Assembly: GCA_951640195.1 (NCBI GenBank)
Contig: OX621165.1
Coordinates: 2,356,001-2,420,000, forward strand
DNA length: 64,000 nt
Direction of reading: 5' to 3'
Origin: Porpolomopsis calyptriformis
Lineage: Eukaryota > Basidiomycota > Agaricomycetes > Agaricales > Hygrophoraceae
Part shown: positions 1,962-11,046 of the stretch, in pieces
Position numbering within the stretch: position 1 is the first letter of the stretch
Layout of the letters: the number at the start of each line of letters is the position of its first letter
The notes under the pieces: model-generated
What the model was told of the DNA's origin: nothing
Database searches by the model: none
The model's input: the letters and a program-made list of their open reading frames with translations, nothing else
Program-made: the position numbers and the translations under genes

Positions 1962-1966
1962 GAGAT
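1962..1966. repeat. Target-site duplication GAGAT, left
   Basis: GAGAT directly precedes the 5' LTR and is repeated at 8548-8552 directly after the 3' LTR. A 5-bp duplication is normal for Ty3/gypsy integrases. Confidence 0.9.
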
Positions 1967-2291
1967 TGTCACGGACACTTTTTCCTTTTCCTTTTAGTCA
2001 TACTTGATCAGTCTCCATTCCGTTTATCCTTCCGCTTTACCGTTTTATATATAGACTGATCACATGTACCTTCCTTCCGACTCTTTCACTAGTCACATTC
2101 CGGATTCCACTTTGTAATCGTACGTACGACTGACTCATGGCGACTCAGGTAGTTAGTATATAAAGCCTGACCTTTAGTCAGTAGGTTAAGTTCGATTCCT
2201 AGTTAGCTCCCCACTCTTTAGTCGAATTCTATTTTCCTCATCAGCCCCTCCAACGCAAGAAGTAAAACCCTTCGACTACCGAATCATAACA
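1967..2291 (+). repeat. 5' LTR
   Basis: 325 bp, starts TGTCACGG and ends CATAACA. It aligns without gaps to the 3' LTR at 8223-8547. A TATA box at 2157-2164 and the primer complementarity place the start of R near 2188, giving U3 at about 1967-2187 and R-U5 at 2188-2291. Confidence 0.95.
2157..2198 (+). promoter_or_regulatory. LTR promoter: TATA box and inferred transcript start
   Basis: TATATAAA at 2157-2164 is followed 31 bp after its first base by AAGTTCGATTC (2188-2198). The reverse complement of that string is the primer site after the LTR. In self-priming elements the transcript begins with exactly such a sequence, so both clues agree on a start at or near 2188. The same layout is present in the 3' LTR. 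Confidence 0.75.
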
Positions 2292-2292
2292 A

Positions 2293-2303
2293 GAATCGAA
2301 CTT
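2293..2303 (+). other. Self-complementary primer binding site (Tf1/sushi type)
   Basis: GAATCGAACTT starts two bases after the LTR end. It is the exact reverse complement of AAGTTCGATTC at 2188-2198 inside the LTR, 11 of 11 bases, and pairing stops at both sides. I could not fit it to a tRNA 3' end. Tf1 of fission yeast primes reverse transcription from the first 11 bases of its own mRNA, which is the same geometry. Confidence 0.8.
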
Positions 2304-2466
2304 CCTTCTTGCGCATCAAACTACTTCCACTCTGGATCCTGCCGAAGACTTAACAAGGTCAATCTTCTCATCCGCAGATTCAGATACTCCCTTTCAACCC
2401 ATAGTATTCCAAACCCCTGCACAATCCATCATCCCCCTTTCCCCCTCGTCATCATCACTAACATCA

Positions 2467-3882
2467 ATGTCTCAACAAGAATACGAAGCCGATCAGAGCA
2501 TTCCCACACCCGGACCCAGCAACATCCCCCCTACCATTCAAGAAGAAGAAGAAGACGTCGTCCCATTCAACATCGAACAAGAGCTCAGAGATCTAAGAGC
2601 ACAAATTGACCAGTTCCGTGGCTGGTATTATAACGAAGTCAACGTCAATGACGAACTCCGAAAGGAATTAAAAGCTCTCAAAGAAAGTCGACGAGAAGAC
2701 TCAGAACCAACCACCCCTCCTCCACGACGACGATCTGTACTTCGGGGACCTGGGCTTTCCCCCTCGAATCCTTTCGTTTACCCTGCAAGAAGAACCGAAT
2801 CCGTCCAACCTCCTATCCCATCAACCTTTCCCACTCAACTACCTGCCCAGACAACTGCTCCCCCTACACTTCCAGCCCCCACCAAAATCAAAATTGCCGA
2901 TCCAACTGAATACGATGGAACTTCCGAGAAGCTTGAAGATTTCATTCACCAATGTCGACTCAATTTTGTGGTCAAGGACTACAACGACAAACAGAAAATC
3001 GTCTACATGCTCTCTTATCTCGGTGACGGCAACCCACGGGCTTGGGGACGACTGTTCACAGAAGGAGTTGATAGAATGAGGAATTTCGTATAGAACTACG
3101 CAACATTCTTGGACAATTTCAGGGAAGCTTTCAGAAGGATTAACCCAGCAGCGAAGGCGCGGATCGAGCTAGAAAAAGTGAAAATGACAGGAACGATAGA
3201 AGACTACAACCTTCGGTTCATGCAACACGCAGCAAGAACTGAATACAACGAGACCGCTCTACTTCGGTTTTACAAAGCCGGACTCCCCCAGCCAATCCGA
3301 ATGCGGATTTATTCGATGGACAACATGCCATCGACCTTGCTGGACTGGATGACGAAAGTGGCCCAGTTCAAGGAACAGTACCAGGAGCAATGAGCTGAAC
3401 AAGCGTTGTGGTCAAGTCGAGATCAAAAAGGAAAGAAGTCTGAAGCCAAATCGAATCCCTGAGGAAACCCTTCCCGCTTCACCACCACCACCACTTCATC
3501 CCCGATCAAACAAGAATCGAGAGAAGCCTCTCTCAAGACAGCGAAACGAGACAACTCCTCCATCACTTGCTACAACTGTGGCAAAAAAGGACATTACACC
3601 AACGAATGTCGAAGCCCACATGCTGAAGATGTTCTGGCACGTCAAGAATCCTCAACCTCTACTCGAGGAAAAGGAGGAAATCGCGGTCGAGGCAAAGGAC
3701 GAAATGTCCGAACGATCAATCGGGTTGATACAGAAGAATCGGAAGCGCGGATAGAGGAAGTACCAGAGGATGACGAAAAAAGGACGGCAAAAGACGACCT
3801 GAAGGATATGGGAATCGCGAATTGGGACAAGGAGAGACGGGCTGCGCTAGCTCGAGCATTAAAAGAGCAAAAGGATTTTTAA
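2467..3882 (+). pseudogene. gag: gag, broken by three in-frame stops
   Basis: One reading frame runs from the ATG at 2467 to TAA at 3880-3882 and would give about 471 residues. It is cut by TAG at 3091-3093 and TGA at 3391-3393 and 3460-3462. The N-terminal third has a coiled-coil-like stretch, the middle is a helical capsid-like region, and the C-terminal part has a CCHC zinc knuckle (CYNCGKKGHYTNEC, about 3571-3612), as is usual for nucleocapsid. Each internal stop is one C-to-T change from a Gln or Arg codon. The frame overlaps the pol frame, which is open from 3774 in the -1 register, so pol was probably made by -1 frameshifting or separate initiation. No canonical slippery heptamer is obvious; a run of six A at 3776-3781 is the best candidate. 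Confidence 0.85.
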
Positions 3883-6800
3883 TTCGGCCAAGTGCTAAAT
3901 GCCCGAGCACTTTGGCTGTGTCCCATGTATGTGTACCACCATCTATGAAAAGTTTTCGTTTTCTTGGCACACTTGAACAGGGCAAAGGCGCTCTCGAATT
4001 CTATCTTTGGATCACGAGTGCCGACAATCTTCAACGAGTGGCTATCATAGCACTCATTGACTCTGGCGCCTCAGGGAATTTTATTGACGAAGCATTCGTT
4101 CGTCAAATAGAGATATCGACCTATCCATTGGATGAGGTTGTACCGGTACGAAATGCTGATGGTTCCGAGAACTGAGGAGGTCCCATCACGCATGACACAG
4201 ACCTGTTTATCGAGGCACCAGATCTATCTTTTCGAGAACGAATCCGGTTGGAGGTCACCAACTTAGGAAGAAAACAACAGGTCATCCTCGGCTTCCCATG
4301 GCTCTTGCGACACAACCCCACCATCAATTGGACAAAAGGCACCTTAACCTTTGCGTCTGGTGACACGCTGTTCAGTAGTATGCGAGTCGGAGTGTTGCCC
4401 CCACAGGAAGAACTCTACGTCTTTGATTCGAGTCTGAAACATGACTCTTTTATCCGTTTGGTTGGAGTTGACCACTCCCGACCAGTTTCCATCGAGGAGG
4501 ACATCAAATCCTTCATTCCCAGTCGTTATCACAATTTCTGGCGTGTTTTCCATACCGCAGAATTCGACAAACTTCCTCCTCGACGTTCCTTTGATTATGC
4601 GATCAACCTCTACCCAAACACCAAATTTCAAGTCGGAAAACTCTATCCCCTTTCCCCCTATGAACAGGTGGAACTTAACAAGTTTATTGACGAAAATCTC
4701 AGAACAGGTCAGATACGTCCATCGAAATCGCCACAGGCTGCTCCTTTCTTCTTTGCGAAAAAGGCCAAAGAGATCAATGCTAAAGGTCTCAATGCTGGTC
4801 TACGTCCCATCCAGGACTATCGCTACATCAACTCAAAAACCATTCCTGATCGTTATCCCCTCCCCCTTCTATCGGAAATTCTCCAAGTGCCGAAGCTTGC
4901 GACTGCTTCGCTCTTCACTGTCATCGATATTCGATGGGGATTTAACAACATACGACTCAAGGAGGGCGATGAATGGAAAGCAGCCTTCATCACCAATCGA
5001 GGACTCTTCAAACCGACCGTTATGTTCTTTGGACTACGAAACTCCCCAGCATCTTTTCAACGAATGATAGACGTTCTCTTTAAACCCATTCTGGACTCTG
5101 GCTGTGTTCACATCTATATTGACGACATTCTTATTATGGGCGACACCCCCGAAGAAATCTGCCACTGGACTGATGAGACCCTCAAACTCATGGAGAAGAA
5201 TCAACTATCCACCAAACCTGTCAAATGCCAAATGGAGAAGACCTCTGTTACATACCTTGGTACAATCATCAGTAAAGGTCAACTCGCTATCAACCCAAAA
5301 AAGGTAGACGCCATTATCAATTGGCTGACACCTCAAAAACTGCGAGATCTCCAGTCCTTCCTTGGCACCACCAACTTCTGGCGTTGTTATATCAAAAGTT
5401 TCTCCTCAGTTGTTCGTCCCCTCTGTGGACTTTTATGGAAAGACCAACCTTGGGATTGGTCTCCTTTGTGTCAAAAAGCCTTTGAACAACTCAAATATCT
5501 CGTCACTACAGCCCCTGTCCTTCTTACCCCGCAGCCAGACCTTCCTTACCTCCTGGAGACCGATGCCTCCGATTTCGGTATTGGCGCGGTCTTATCTCAA
5601 AAACACGACAATGGTTGGCACCCTGCTGGCTTTTTCTCGAAATCCCTGCTCCCTGCCGAGTACAACTATCCTACCCATGATCTGGAAATGCTTGCGATTG
5701 TCACTTCCCTCAAGTATTGGTGCTATCTTTTAGAGGGCGCAAGGGATACTGTATTGATAAAAACAGACAATTTAGCGCTCAAGTATTTCATGCAGAACAG
5801 ATCCCTCTCCAGACGACAAGCACGTTGGATGGAATTCTTAGGCAGATTTGACTTCAAGATCGAGTATTCCCCTGGAGTCAAGAACAAAGCCGATGGACTC
5901 TCCCGCCGACCCGACCACCGTCGTACAGAAAAGGAAGAACTAGAAGACAAAGCCCTCCTCCCTCCCGAACGTTTTATCAATGCTATCATTTCCATGTCTG
6001 AACCCTCTTTCATGTCAAGACTTCGCTTCCCCGACTTCAATCAAATCCCAGAGGACATTCGCACCAAATTATCCGATTCCTCTTCCGGCTACTCCTTCAC
6101 TGACGGAATTGTGAGAGATGCAGGAGATCGAATTGTCGTGCCAGCGGACGTATCGCTATGCACAGAGATAATTCGATTGACCCACTCCCTACCCCATGGA
6201 GGCCATCCCGGAATCGAGAAGACACGTGAGCTTGTGTTGCGGAACTACACCTGGAGTAGTGCTGCCCCTGACATCTGTGTATTCGTATCATCCTGTCCGA
6301 CCTGCCAACAAGTCAAGCTCTATCCTTCGAAGCCTGCAGGTCTCCTGGAACCTATTCCCCCTTCGTCTCGACCTTGGGAAGAAATCACCGCCGATCTGAT
6401 CGTGGAACTCCCCCAATCATCTGGCTACGATGCTGTCTTAGTCGTTGTCGATCGCTTTACCAAACGCGCTCACTTTATCCCGACGACATCGAATATTTCT
6501 GCAGAAGGAGTTGCAAAACTCTTCAGGGACAACGTATGGAAATACCATGGCTGGCCAAAGAAGATCATAACCGATCGAGGAACTCAATTCGCTTCCAAAT
6601 TCGCAAAAGCTCTCAATACTCATTTGGGAATCATCTCCGGTCTATCCACTGCTTATCATCCCCAAACTGATGGTCAAACGGAACGCACCAATCAAGAACT
6701 TGAACAATACCTTCGTTTATATACAAACTTTATGCAAGACGATTGGTCCAACTGGCTGTCCCCAGCTGAATTCGCGTATAATAACCGACAACACTCCTCG

Positions 6801-7442
6801 ACGAAACACACTCCCTTTTACCTTGACACTGGCCAACATCCCTTCGTCCCATCTATCCCTGCGATCCCTACTTCCAATCCCACAGCAGATGCCTTTCACG
6901 ATCATCTCACAGAAGCCCGTAAAGAAGCCACAAAAGCTCTAGAAACAACGGCTGAAACTATGAAACGCTTCGCAGATCGTAAACGGAAAGATACCCAACT
7001 CCAAATAGGTCAATTTGTTTATCTTGATACCCGTAACTTAAAAACAGGTCGTCTAACCCTCAAACTTGATGTCCGACGTACTGGACCATTCAAAATTCTA
7101 GAAAAAATCGGAAAAGTCTCTTATCGCCTGGCCCTTCCCTTATCATGGAAAATACACGACGTCTTTCACGTTTCACTCCTGAGACCCGCTAATATTAACT
7201 CCAATCTCCATCCAGAGGAAGTAGATGATAATCTCCGTCCACCTCCGGATGTCATTCAAGAGAAAGAAGAATACGAGGTTAAACAAATTCTCCAACATCA
7301 TGGGTCTACCCGACGTCATACGTATTTGGTTAAATGGGTCGGCTATCCCATTGAAGAAGCAACTTGGGAGCTGAAGAAGAACCTCCTCCATGCGAAAGAA
7401 CGAATTCTAGAATACGAACACTTGATTCAAACGGCGACCTAA
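3774..7442 (+). pseudogene. pol: pol: protease, RT, RNase H, integrase, chromodomain; one stop
   Basis: The frame is open from 3774 to TAA at 7440-7442 except for TGA at 4173-4175, which separates the protease from the rest. The protease has the active-site LIDSGASGNFI near 4058. RT motifs follow, with the catalytic YIDD at about 5116. RNase H shows ETDASDFGIGAVLS near 5556. Integrase has an HHCC zinc finger (about 6180-6310) and DD35E residues around 6390, 6568 and 6670. The C-terminus (about 7270-7430) is a chromodomain with EYEV and KWVGYP. From 4176 on, 1089 codons are intact, so enzyme sequence is well preserved although gag is not. Confidence 0.92.
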
Positions 7443-7563
7443 TCATTCTTTCACGGTATCAACTCCCCTCGTTTATGTTTTCACTTTTTGTCACCTTTCC
7501 AAACTCCGACCTGTCCTTATAATCTCTTTCATCTCCGTCTTTCACTAGAAAATTGACATCACT

Positions 7564-8142
7564 ATGCCCGCAGAACGCTCACACCAAACCGCTCGCAAAT
7601 CAACCGGTGGTCGTCCACCCCGCGCTCCTCATATGTCCACTGGAGGACAACCCCCTTGCCGCGCTCCCCCTCCGCTCGCTTCCACCTCCTCCGCCTACGG
7701 TGAAGCTGAGCTCGCCGGACAACTCTGGCAACACAACCGTCGCGCACGCAATCGGGACCTTCCCATATGGCCAGAAGAAATCATCGCGCCACCCATCCCA
7801 CCCGAGCAAATCATCGAGTCACTGCAGAAGGACGTCAAGTACTATAAAGACGAAATCGCGAGATTGAATGAAGAACTGTACAATCAGGGAATGAGTTTAG
7901 ATGGAAAGAGAAGAGCGAGTGAATATTGGCGAGAACAGGCCAAACACTGGGAGACGAAATATGAGGAAGCCATAAAGGTACTTCCCCATCTTGATTCCCC
8001 GGTCCCTCCTGTTTTCCCAGGTCCACTCATCGTTCCCCCCGGTTTGTCGTCGAACCCCATCACCATCCCCGATGACGACGACACTTCCCCGGCCGACATT
8101 ATTTCCCTGTCGACCGCCGTCTCTGACAAGGACTTAATCTAG
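7564..8142 (+). CDS. Extra retrotransposon ORF with histone H3-tail-like N-terminus
   Basis: An intact 192-residue ORF between the end of pol and the 3' LTR, with its own ATG 119 bp after the pol stop. Residues 8-16 read QTARKSTGG, identical to histone H3 residues 5-13, so K12 corresponds to H3 K9. The next residues RPPRAP resemble H3 KAPR, and STGGQPPCRAP at 25-35 is a degenerate second copy. Residues of about 80-140 are charged and heptad-like, suggesting a coiled coil. The C-terminus is Pro-rich and acidic. There is no histone fold. An ORF here is not standard for gypsy elements. Binding of its tail to chromodomains or other H3K9 readers is inference. Confidence 0.8.
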   Translation: MPAERSHQTARKSTGGRPPRAPHMSTGGQPPCRAPPPLASTSSAYGEAELAGQLWQHNRRARNRDLPIWPEEIIAPPIPPEQIIESLQKDVKYYKDEIARLNEELYNQGMSLDGKRRASEYWREQAKHWETKYEEAIKVLPHLDSPVPPVFPGPLIVPPGLSSNPITIPDDDDTSPADIISLSTAVSDKDLI

Positions 8143-8222
8143 TCCTTCACCTCCTCCGCACCCGTCAACACTCTCGAAGCTGCCTCGAATTTCGGGACGA
8201 AATTCCTTTTAGTGTGGGTGTA

Positions 8223-8547
8223 TGTCACGGACACTTTTTCCTTTTCCTTTTAGTCATACTTGATCAGTCTCCATTCCGTTTATCCTTCCGCTTTACTATT
8301 TTATATATAGACTGATCACATGTACCTTCCTTCCGACTCTTTCACTAGTCACATTCCGGATTCCACTTTGTAATCGTACGTACGACTGACTCATGGCGAC
8401 TCAGGTAGTTAGTATATAAAGCCTGACCTTTAGTTAGTAGGTTAAGTTCGATTCCTAGTTAGCTCCCCACTCTTTAGTCGAATTCTATTTTCCTCATTAG
8501 CCCCTCCAATGCAAGAAGTAAAACCCTTCAACTACCGAATCATAACA
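8223..8547 (+). repeat. 3' LTR
   Basis: 325 bp, collinear with the 5' LTR. The six differences are all C-to-T or G-to-A relative to the 5' copy (counterparts of 2041, 2042, 2179, 2242, 2254 and 2274). The purine-rich AGTGTGGGTG just before it is the probable polypurine tract. Confidence 0.95.
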
Positions 8548-8552
8548 GAGAT
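8548..8552. repeat. Target-site duplication GAGAT, right
   Basis: Matches 1962-1966 exactly and defines the insertion point of the gypsy element. Confidence 0.9.
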
Positions 8553-8821: not shown

Positions 8822-9271
8822 TTAGCTAGGAGGGAAAGTGGCAGGAGGGGGACTGGGAGGGGGTACTGAAATGGTTGAGGTGATTGTACCTATGTTCATA
8901 GTAGTGATAGTGGTAACAAGTGGATTTGTAGTCAGTAACGACATCAATGTCAAGCCGATTGGGATGGGGATGCCACTGGAATTCTTCTTGTGGACACTTC
9001 GAAACATTCCTACTACAACTCCAATGACAATCATCACAATGAGACTGATGGCAGCCATGAAGGCTCCCTTCTTCGATTTCCAGAACCGCTGGCGTTGGGG
9101 TGGCTGAGCCAACTCAGGCAACTCGGGCAGCTGAGACGGGGTGACAGGCAGATGGGTCTCTTTTCTAACCGGTTCAGGCTTGACCGCAACATAAATGGGC
9201 GGAGGATCGGTTGGAAGTTGGCTAGTAGTCGGAATATTTGGATATTCAGCAGGCGGTCGAAGGACATACAT
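8822..9271 (-). CDS. Single-pass membrane protein with two PPxY motifs, copy 3
   Basis: The first ATG in frame is at 9271 (MYVLRPPAEYPN), giving 149 residues, but the frame is open upstream and encodes SSNNNPSNPP just before it. That completes a PPMY motif, so an upstream exon or start is likely. The equivalent of the copy 5 start codon is GTG here. A second motif, PPIY, is at about 25-28, FWKSKKGAF precedes a span at about 69-88, and the tail is short and Pro-rich. The gene ends at 8822. The family role is unknown. It lies just right of the TIR element, which disrupts the sequence 3' of it. Confidence 0.5.
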   Translation of the reverse strand: MYVLRPPAEYPNIPTTSQLPTDPPPIYVAVKPEPVRKETHLPVTPSQLPELPELAQPPQRQRFWKSKKGAFMAAISLIVMIVIGVVVGMFRSVHKKNSSGIPIPIGLTLMSLLTTNPLVTTITTMNIGTITSTISVPPPSPPPATFPPS

Positions 9272-10488: not shown

Positions 10489-11046
10489 TCAGGTGAGAGT
10501 GGCAGGGAGAGGGGTGGCAAGGGGAGGGGCATTGGCAGGGGGAGTATTGGTAAGAGAAGTGATAGGAGGGAGAAGGCTAAAAGGGAGAACGCCACTAAAT
10601 TTCGGACCAGGGGGTGACGAACTGACCGAAACGGAGGGTACCGAGATGGTTGAGGTGAATGTAAATATGGTGAAATTGGTAACGACCGTAATTGACGGCG
10701 AGATTGGCGTCGAGTTGTTTGGGAGGGGGTTGGCACTGAAAGGATTCGAGGAGGTTGAGGATTTATGCGTCCTGCCTATTGTTATTCCGATGGTAACAAT
10801 CACCACGATGAGACCGATGGCGAGTACGAATGCTCCCTTCTTCGATTTCCAGAATGGCTTGGGTTGGAGGGGCTGAGGCAACTCAGGCAACTCGAGCGGC
10901 TGAGATGGCCCAACAGGGAGACGGCGCCTTTTGCCAACCCTAACTGGTTCAGGCTGGATTTCGACATAGCTGGGTGGGGGATCGGTTGGAAGTTGGGTGT
11001 TTGTCGGGGAATTCGGATGTTCAGCAGGTGGTTGACGGTCTTTCAT
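10489..11046 (-). CDS. Single-pass membrane protein with PPxY motif, copy 4
   Basis: 185 residues from the ATG at 11046, close in sequence to copy 2 over the N-terminal half, which points to a recent duplication. It has PPPSY at 23-27, FWKSKKGAF and a span at about 71-90, then a Ser/Thr/Pro tail. The tail ends in TLT at a TGA where copy 2 reads TGC and continues for eight residues. Upstream DNA is also conserved with copy 2 for about 100 bp. Proposed topology and role are as for copy 2. Confidence 0.65.
   Translation of the reverse strand: MKDRQPPAEHPNSPTNTQLPTDPPPSYVEIQPEPVRVGKRRRLPVGPSQPLELPELPQPLQPKPFWKSKKGAFVLAIGLIVVIVTIGITIGRTHKSSTSSNPFSANPLPNNSTPISPSITVVTNFTIFTFTSTISVPSVSVSSSPPGPKFSGVLPFSLLPPITSLTNTPPANAPPLATPLPATLT

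Follow-up and report, generated by a model that had tools for sequence, protein, structure and literature searches.

A chromovirus in this genome carries, between pol and its 3' LTR, a third open reading frame (ORF3) whose product repeats nine consecutive residues of the histone H3 tail around lysine 9, and this frame is under purifying selection, motif included. We put the chances at about even that ORF3 serves the chromovirus as an accessory mimic of the H3K9 tail, one that the host would methylate and chromodomains would read. A selected copy of this tail would be a direct molecular link from a mobile element to the heterochromatin system that silences it, and it raises a question open to test, namely whether elements offer H3K9 silencing a substrate in order to counter it or to exploit it.

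Architecture of the element

The element spans positions 1967-8547 of the window, the stretch of 64,000 nucleotides analysed here, on contig C3 of a 33.5-Mb genome with 17 contigs (G000), which its intron-bearing H3 genes and its chromoviruses suggest to be fungal. Its features are as follows.

1962..1966, no strand: 5' target site duplication GAGAT (flank comparison)
1967..2291, plus strand: 5' LTR, 325 bp (blastn self-match of 98.15% to 8223-8547)
2467..3093, plus strand: N-terminal part of gag, with a weak Ty3_capsid match below the cut-off; the frame of the window copy stops at 3093
4380..7442, plus strand: pol (RT, RNase H, integrase, chromodomain; Pfam), its start taken as the first ATG after an in-frame stop
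7272..7418, plus strand: integrase chromodomain with aromatic cage Y/W/Y (Pfam PF00385, PDB chromodomain matches, cage counts)
7564..8142, plus strand: ORF3, accessory protein of 192 aa (open reading frame, family copies, selection)
7585..7611, plus strand: QTARKSTGG, equal to histone H3 residues 5-13 (sequence match, PDB search, shuffles)
7612..7629, plus strand: RPPRAP, a KAPR-like continuation with Arg at the H3 Lys14 position (copy alignment, PDB alignments)
7636..7647, plus strand: second STGG block, conserved less (copy alignment)
7801..7995, plus strand: long helix, residues 80-144, likely a coiled coil (AlphaFold2 model)
8223..8547, plus strand: 3' LTR (blastn self-match to the 5' LTR)
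8548..8552, no strand: 3' target site duplication GAGAT (flank comparison)

The Pfam domain order of RT, RNase H, integrase and C-terminal chromodomain places the element among the chromoviruses (Ty3/Gypsy), as do the paired LTRs and the target site duplication, and the chromodomain that the original prediction had placed at the end of pol is identified by PF00385. ORF3 is separate from both gag and pol. The window copy is not intact, as gag stops at 3093 and pol is open for 1088 codons vs 1273 in 15 other copies; all 192 codons of its ORF3 are open. Splicing was considered as the expression route of ORF3, with a 3'-splice-like ctttcactag just upstream, but it was rejected as this form occurs in only 19 of 78 copies.

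Three similar minus-strand ORFs flank the element on both sides (378-1007, 8822-9271 and 10489-11046). They read PPAEHPN or PPAEYPN...FWKSKKGAF followed by a hydrophobic stretch, and perhaps represent a membrane-anchored protein family.

The histone H3 tail of ORF3

The N-terminus of ORF3 reads MPAERSHQTARKSTGGRPPRAPHMSTGG. Residues 8-16, QTARKSTGG, are identical to H3 residues 5-13, as originally predicted, and they contain the ARKS/T motif resembling H3 around Lys9 by which H3K9 mimics are recognised in sequence. The identity lies beyond what shuffling produces: the longest word common to ORF3 and the host H3 tail has 9 residues, 20,000 composition shuffles yielded at most 6 (reached in 6 shuffles), and the chance expectation for 9-mer matches is 9e-8. 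When the first 35 residues were compared with PDB chains by phmmer, 129 distinct sequences were returned at E<=10, with a best E of 0.0054 that is weak because the query is short; the best 60 of the 129 are all named H3, H3 variants, H3 peptides or Cse4. Three of these alignments set R-S-H-QTARKSTGG-RPPR of ORF3 against R-T-K-QTARKSTGG-KAPR of H3, which bears out the description of RPPRAP as KAPR-like. Lys12, the K9 equivalent, is the sole lysine within residues 1-88. The weaker second STGG block that had been noted is likewise real and is retained by 51 of 58 stop-free copies; MSTER, MSTEQ or ISTER stands in its place in four copies of a composite element described below (L071-L074).

Beyond the tail, ORF3 had been said to have no histone fold and a predicted coiled coil. 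Pfam gave no histone match, its one match in ORF3 falling below the cut-off. The AlphaFold2 model, which rests on an alignment of only 5 sequences, is helical, and its single long helix of 65 residues (80-144; pLDDT means of 87-98 for ten-residue blocks over 81-140) supports the coiled coil. In the same model residues 1-50 have block means of 44-55, with no helix or strand before residue 46. Values this low suggest a disordered N-terminus, the predicted helix is likely a coiled coil, and from this we infer that ORF3 likely dimerises through it.

Conservation and selection in the ORF3 family

A tblastn search of the genome with ORF3 gave 127 matches at E<=0.001, of which about 101 are ORF3-type copies (102 rows, one copy being split in two, with fragments and a distant family excluded). 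Eighty-one ORF3-type loci were read (L001-L081); chromodomain DNA adjoins ORF3 in 78 of them, and LTR DNA lies within the fetched piece in 71. The DNA pattern for exact QTARKSTGG has 70 matches in the whole genome. Of these, 67 fall inside copies of ORF3 and the other 3 in the H3 genes of the host; the backwards motif, searched as a control in the same DNA, has 0. About two thirds of the copies, old ones included, thus retain the exact motif.

The alignment of full-length copies holds 78 sequences, including the window copy and leaving out three partial copies (L076, L077, L081), a duplicate of L071 (L087) and a member of another family (L082). All 78 agree at the K9-equivalent lysine, at the motif's serine and its two threonines, and at prolines 18-19 of ORF3. 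The full motif is exact in 62 copies (48 of the 58 that are stop-free and 14 of the 20 with stops), and the other 16 comprise 11 with R-to-H or R-to-C only, 2 with R-to-H plus further changes and 3 with G-to-S only. R-to-H and R-to-C are outcomes of CpG decay, and no synonymous class changes faster among the copies than CpG transitions. At the motif positions T, A, K, S and T, two or more codons each are in use. In fifteen copies the pol frame is open over 1273 aa, the matched part being free of stops, and the ORF3 motif is exact in every one; their ORF3 is stop-free in 13 and has a stop elsewhere in 2. The members of one of these pairs of pol and ORF3 (C1:3496363 with C1:3504498) lie about 7 kb apart, apparently because of a nested sister element. 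The genome also holds 6 DNA-methylase and 14 Piwi matches, and the rapid CpG transitions together with the methylase matches suggest methylation-linked decay of old copies.

By parsimony with a context-dependent expectation, the motif shows 17 nonsynonymous changes against 97.8 expected, a ratio of 0.17 that is the lowest among 184 nine-codon windows over all branches (whole ORF, 0.43); by plain residue identity it ranks 3rd of 184. On internal branches alone, 21 of the 184 windows, motif included, are as low as the motif or lower, the motif-versus-rest contrast gives P=0.067 and the motif's internal-versus-terminal contrast gives P=0.56, values not to be taken literally given an expectation built on majority codons and heavily hit synonymous sites. 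Pairwise figures are safer. Between the window copy and the ORF3 of the composite element, dS is 1.08, dN 0.15 and dN/dS 0.14, with 0 nonsynonymous and 4 synonymous changes in the motif. A ratio of this kind sums what happened on both branches after they diverged, most of it perhaps before the capture, and is no proof that selection acts in the composite itself. Two more window-type copies also give 0.14 for the whole ORF. Of five pairs, four show synonymous and 0 nonsynonymous changes in the motif; the remaining pair, which involves the old copy L079, shows 1 nonsynonymous change. The conservation that the original prediction had proposed to measure is thus found at a dN/dS of about 0.14 with dS near 1 and 0 nonsynonymous changes in the motif, and ORF3 is under purifying selection, motif included.

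The same counts bear on another function of the H3 tail. ORF3 could imitate the nuclear localisation signal of H3, with an importin of the Kap123/importin-4 type carrying the particle or integration complex and K9 methylation being irrelevant. The H3 tail is an import signal in which K14R has a minor effect and K14Q reduces import (PMC5677370), and this reading stands because arginine, which ORF3 has at the K14 position, is tolerated there for Kap123. However, the consensus proposed for Kap123 requires the K14 position to be a lysine, with a second one seven or more residues later (PMC5677370); the stretch of ORF3 between residues 13 and 88 contains no lysine, and import is given less weight for want of a second lysine before residue 89. 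Furthermore, 15 of 78 copies have lost the arginine at the K14 position, and 0 of 78 the K9-equivalent lysine, and H3 K9Q is without strong import effect (PMC5677370), yet that lysine is the invariant one. Overall, nuclear import seems an improbable role.

Binders of H3 5-13 include S10/T11 kinases, 14-3-3 proteins, demethylases and histone chaperones. A mimic could engage such partners through an unmodified, phosphorylated or acetylated tail, outside the H3K9me pathway, which would agree with a motif whose serine and two threonines never vary across the 78 copies. None of the features tested, however, favours any such partner, and the kept segment centres on K9, so we assign this reading a small probability.

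Related elements and the origin of the tail

A sister chromovirus in the same genome is 64-66% identical to the window family in the integrase-chromodomain region and likewise has a third ORF (302 candidates, of which 150 were scored matches, e.g. C5:418295-419038, in L088). Its tail, MPATRS..SPSPQVAIRRSGRIP, which generalises to MPATRS..SPSPQVAIRR(S/A)GRIP, occurs in the 7 copies read, namely L088 and six more from seven short pieces fetched, L094 lying on the wrong side of the gene. The H3 motif is absent in 7 of 7. According to the original prediction, absence or non-conservation in related elements would refute the mimic; the motif came through within the family and in the composite, but not in the third ORF of this sister. 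The coils of the two third ORFs align at 28% identity and both begin with MPA-RS, which suggests a common third ORF; the H3 likeness would then be either an acquisition of the window family or a loss in the sister family. The ORF3 coil also aligns with a 173-aa protein from a different element, which is without the H3 tail. As to clustering of ORF3 copies in heterochromatin, 19 of 101 lie within 15 kb of sister copies, which is inside the random range (mean 11.7, maximum 23), and the idea was dropped.

The composite element (L087, C1:516500-524400, with similar places on C4, C5, C9 and C11) holds a 1275-aa frame that has, by eye, a protease-like stretch inside; this long frame ahead of ORF3 has a gag/protease-like appearance. 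It continues with a window-type pol-end fragment and a chromodomain stretch, which is open up to its stop, retains the cage and differs in frame from the preceding pol fragment. Downstream lies ORF3, with QTARKSTGG, then a fragment that by eye resembles a foreign integrase, and a second coiled-coil ORF, which lacks the tail. The composite ORF3 is about 74% identical, and five composite copies are stop-free, four of which have the exact DNA motif (C1, C4, C5, C11). The motif carries one G-to-S in L073 (C9) and R-to-H in L074, and it is exact in L071 and L072 despite three residues inserted upstream; all four have lost the second STGG. The composite is probably non-autonomous.

Since the chromodomain stretch of L087 is open with its cage retained, chromodomain and ORF3 have travelled together. 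Loss of the chromodomain frame in the composite would have spoken for host readers, but it was ruled out by the open stretch and by its dN/dS of 0.12 against the window copy, a ratio that may, like that of ORF3, mostly predate capture. Greater weight therefore falls on a self-directed form of the mimic, in which the methylated tail would bind only the element's own integrase chromodomain and would assemble or restrain the integration complex until it reaches chromatin. The adjacency of chromodomain DNA in 78 of 81 loci and the kept cage also fit this form. Neighbouring genes, however, would be captured jointly in any case. In L087 the stretch and the preceding pol fragment are in different frames, and in the sister family the cage occurs with no H3 tail. 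We consider the exclusively self-directed form unlikely.

The host has three H3 genes (C5:682286-682866, C5:691281-691854 and C2:3412913-3413403), in which the first intron appears by eye to follow directly after the STGG codons. Two have unusual K27 surroundings (SSAGRKTS, SSAARKTA), and C1:1282163-1282614 holds a diverged H3, at 58% in its best piece, that may be the centromeric variant. Against the gene at C5:691281, the closest 6 of 62 exact-motif copies, the window copy among them, differ at 1 of 25 bases and others at up to 7, a spread that gives no proof of capture from an H3 gene. DNA identity to the host H3 genes stops, by eye, at about the exon 1/intron 1 border, as it would in a passive leftover of a captured exon, and the vaguely similar sister tail QVAIRRSGRIP makes drift from a basic tail thinkable; by either route the likeness would have no histone-related function. 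But over all branches no other nine-codon window is as constrained as the motif, and the pairwise changes within it are synonymous in all pairs but that with L079. A leftover or chance convergence is accordingly rated very improbable.

Candidate readers, writer and proposed mechanism

The cage residues of the family chromodomains are kept as Y in 75, W in 76 and Y in 79 of 80 loci (sister L088 and duplicate L087 included), and with all three aromatic residues present the cage is that of group I, the H3K9me-binding type. The MAGGY chromodomain, with cage Y24/W45/Y48, binds H3K9me2/3 under the same group I definition (PMC3350952). In the PDB search the integrase chromodomain matches, among others, those of HP1, CDYL, SUV39H1 and Clr4. 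In the host genome, a Pre-SET match adjoins a SET match at C14:898851-899870; the latter runs through three stops, presumably introns, and by its domains the gene is a candidate H3K9 writer of the SUV39/Clr4 type. A chromo shadow search for HP1 gave no match in the genome, and neither did its controls.

We propose that this SUV39/Clr4-type enzyme would methylate the K9-equivalent lysine of ORF3, and that the methylated, dimeric tail would be bound by chromodomains of the host (HP1- or Clr4-type), of the element's own integrase, or of both. With host readers, ORF3 could act as a decoy against silencing or could tether the integration complex to chromatin marked by HP1. We lean slightly towards host readers over the element's own chromodomain, because a chromodomain of this kind also occurs in the sister element, which is tail-less. 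In its fullest version, which we hold more tentatively than the mimic itself, ORF3 would be a dimeric H3K9 decoy: the host methyltransferase would write on an element protein, readers of the HP1 type would be soaked up or redirected, and copies would escape silencing or reach tolerated chromatin, one element thereby joining a chromodomain integrase and a chromodomain ligand. The proposal is partly supported so far, by a multi-copy and selected accessory ORF, a true copy of H3 5-13, an adjacent cage-bearing chromodomain and a Pre-SET/SET gene. Natural comparisons are provided by the sister family, which lacks the motif, and by the composite element, which has it.

Comparison with known systems

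No relatives of ORF3 were found among 5.8 billion proteins, where fungi may be thin, using the single sequence or a five-row alignment, nor in viral contigs. The DNA pattern of the motif occurs in 21 stretches across 84,980 prokaryote species, one genome each: 7 are H3, of which one is apparently interrupted by an intron, another 3 translate exactly to QTARKSTGG (L104, L105 and L118, in open frames of 48-62 codons) and 11 encode other residues because the serine codon of the pattern is loose. In viral contigs the pattern has 3 stretches, 0 of them translating to QTARKSTGG.

Like MAGGY, Tcn1-like elements and other chromoviruses, the window element has LTRs, gag, a pol of RT-RNaseH-integrase and a C-terminal chromodomain with the group I cage; it differs by a third ORF bearing an H3 tail. 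The original prediction knew of no such accessory ORF, which holds in part: extra ORFs of fungal chromoviruses are in print, as 'add. ORF ... unknown function' (PMC2864245), and the H3 tail is the new part. Section 5 of that article makes no mention of H3 likeness in them, and in the available text of PMC3248453, on LTR retrotransposons in fungi, 'histone' occurs 0 times. By title and abstract start, none of the matches listed from the open-licence literature describes a transposon-encoded H3 tail. Histone mimicry and the extra ORFs of fungal chromoviruses are thus each known, and their union was not found in that search. Orchid Gypsy elements with an AlkB domain (PMC9289625) likewise carry an extra ORF thought to act on host regulation; theirs is an enzyme domain, whereas ORF3 is a peptide mimic.

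With host H3 itself, ORF3 has in common residues 5-13 and the Pro-Arg at 16-17. It is unlike H3 in its Met-Pro-Ala start, its arginine at the K14 position and its helical body, without K4 and without a histone fold.

Histone mimicry is also found in a few viruses. To our knowledge, most known histone mimics match H3 over only about four residues. Mimics of the H3K9 type comprise G9a/GLP, ATF7IP, CDYL and a wider set of EHMT-motif proteins (PMC9768651, PMC10611923), and those in G9a/GLP are methylated and bind HP1 (PMC9768651). ORF3 shares with them, and with viral mimics, a short ARKS/T-like motif around a methylatable lysine, and it differs in that nine consecutive residues are identical, placed near the N-terminus as in H3 itself, and in a retrotransposon protein.
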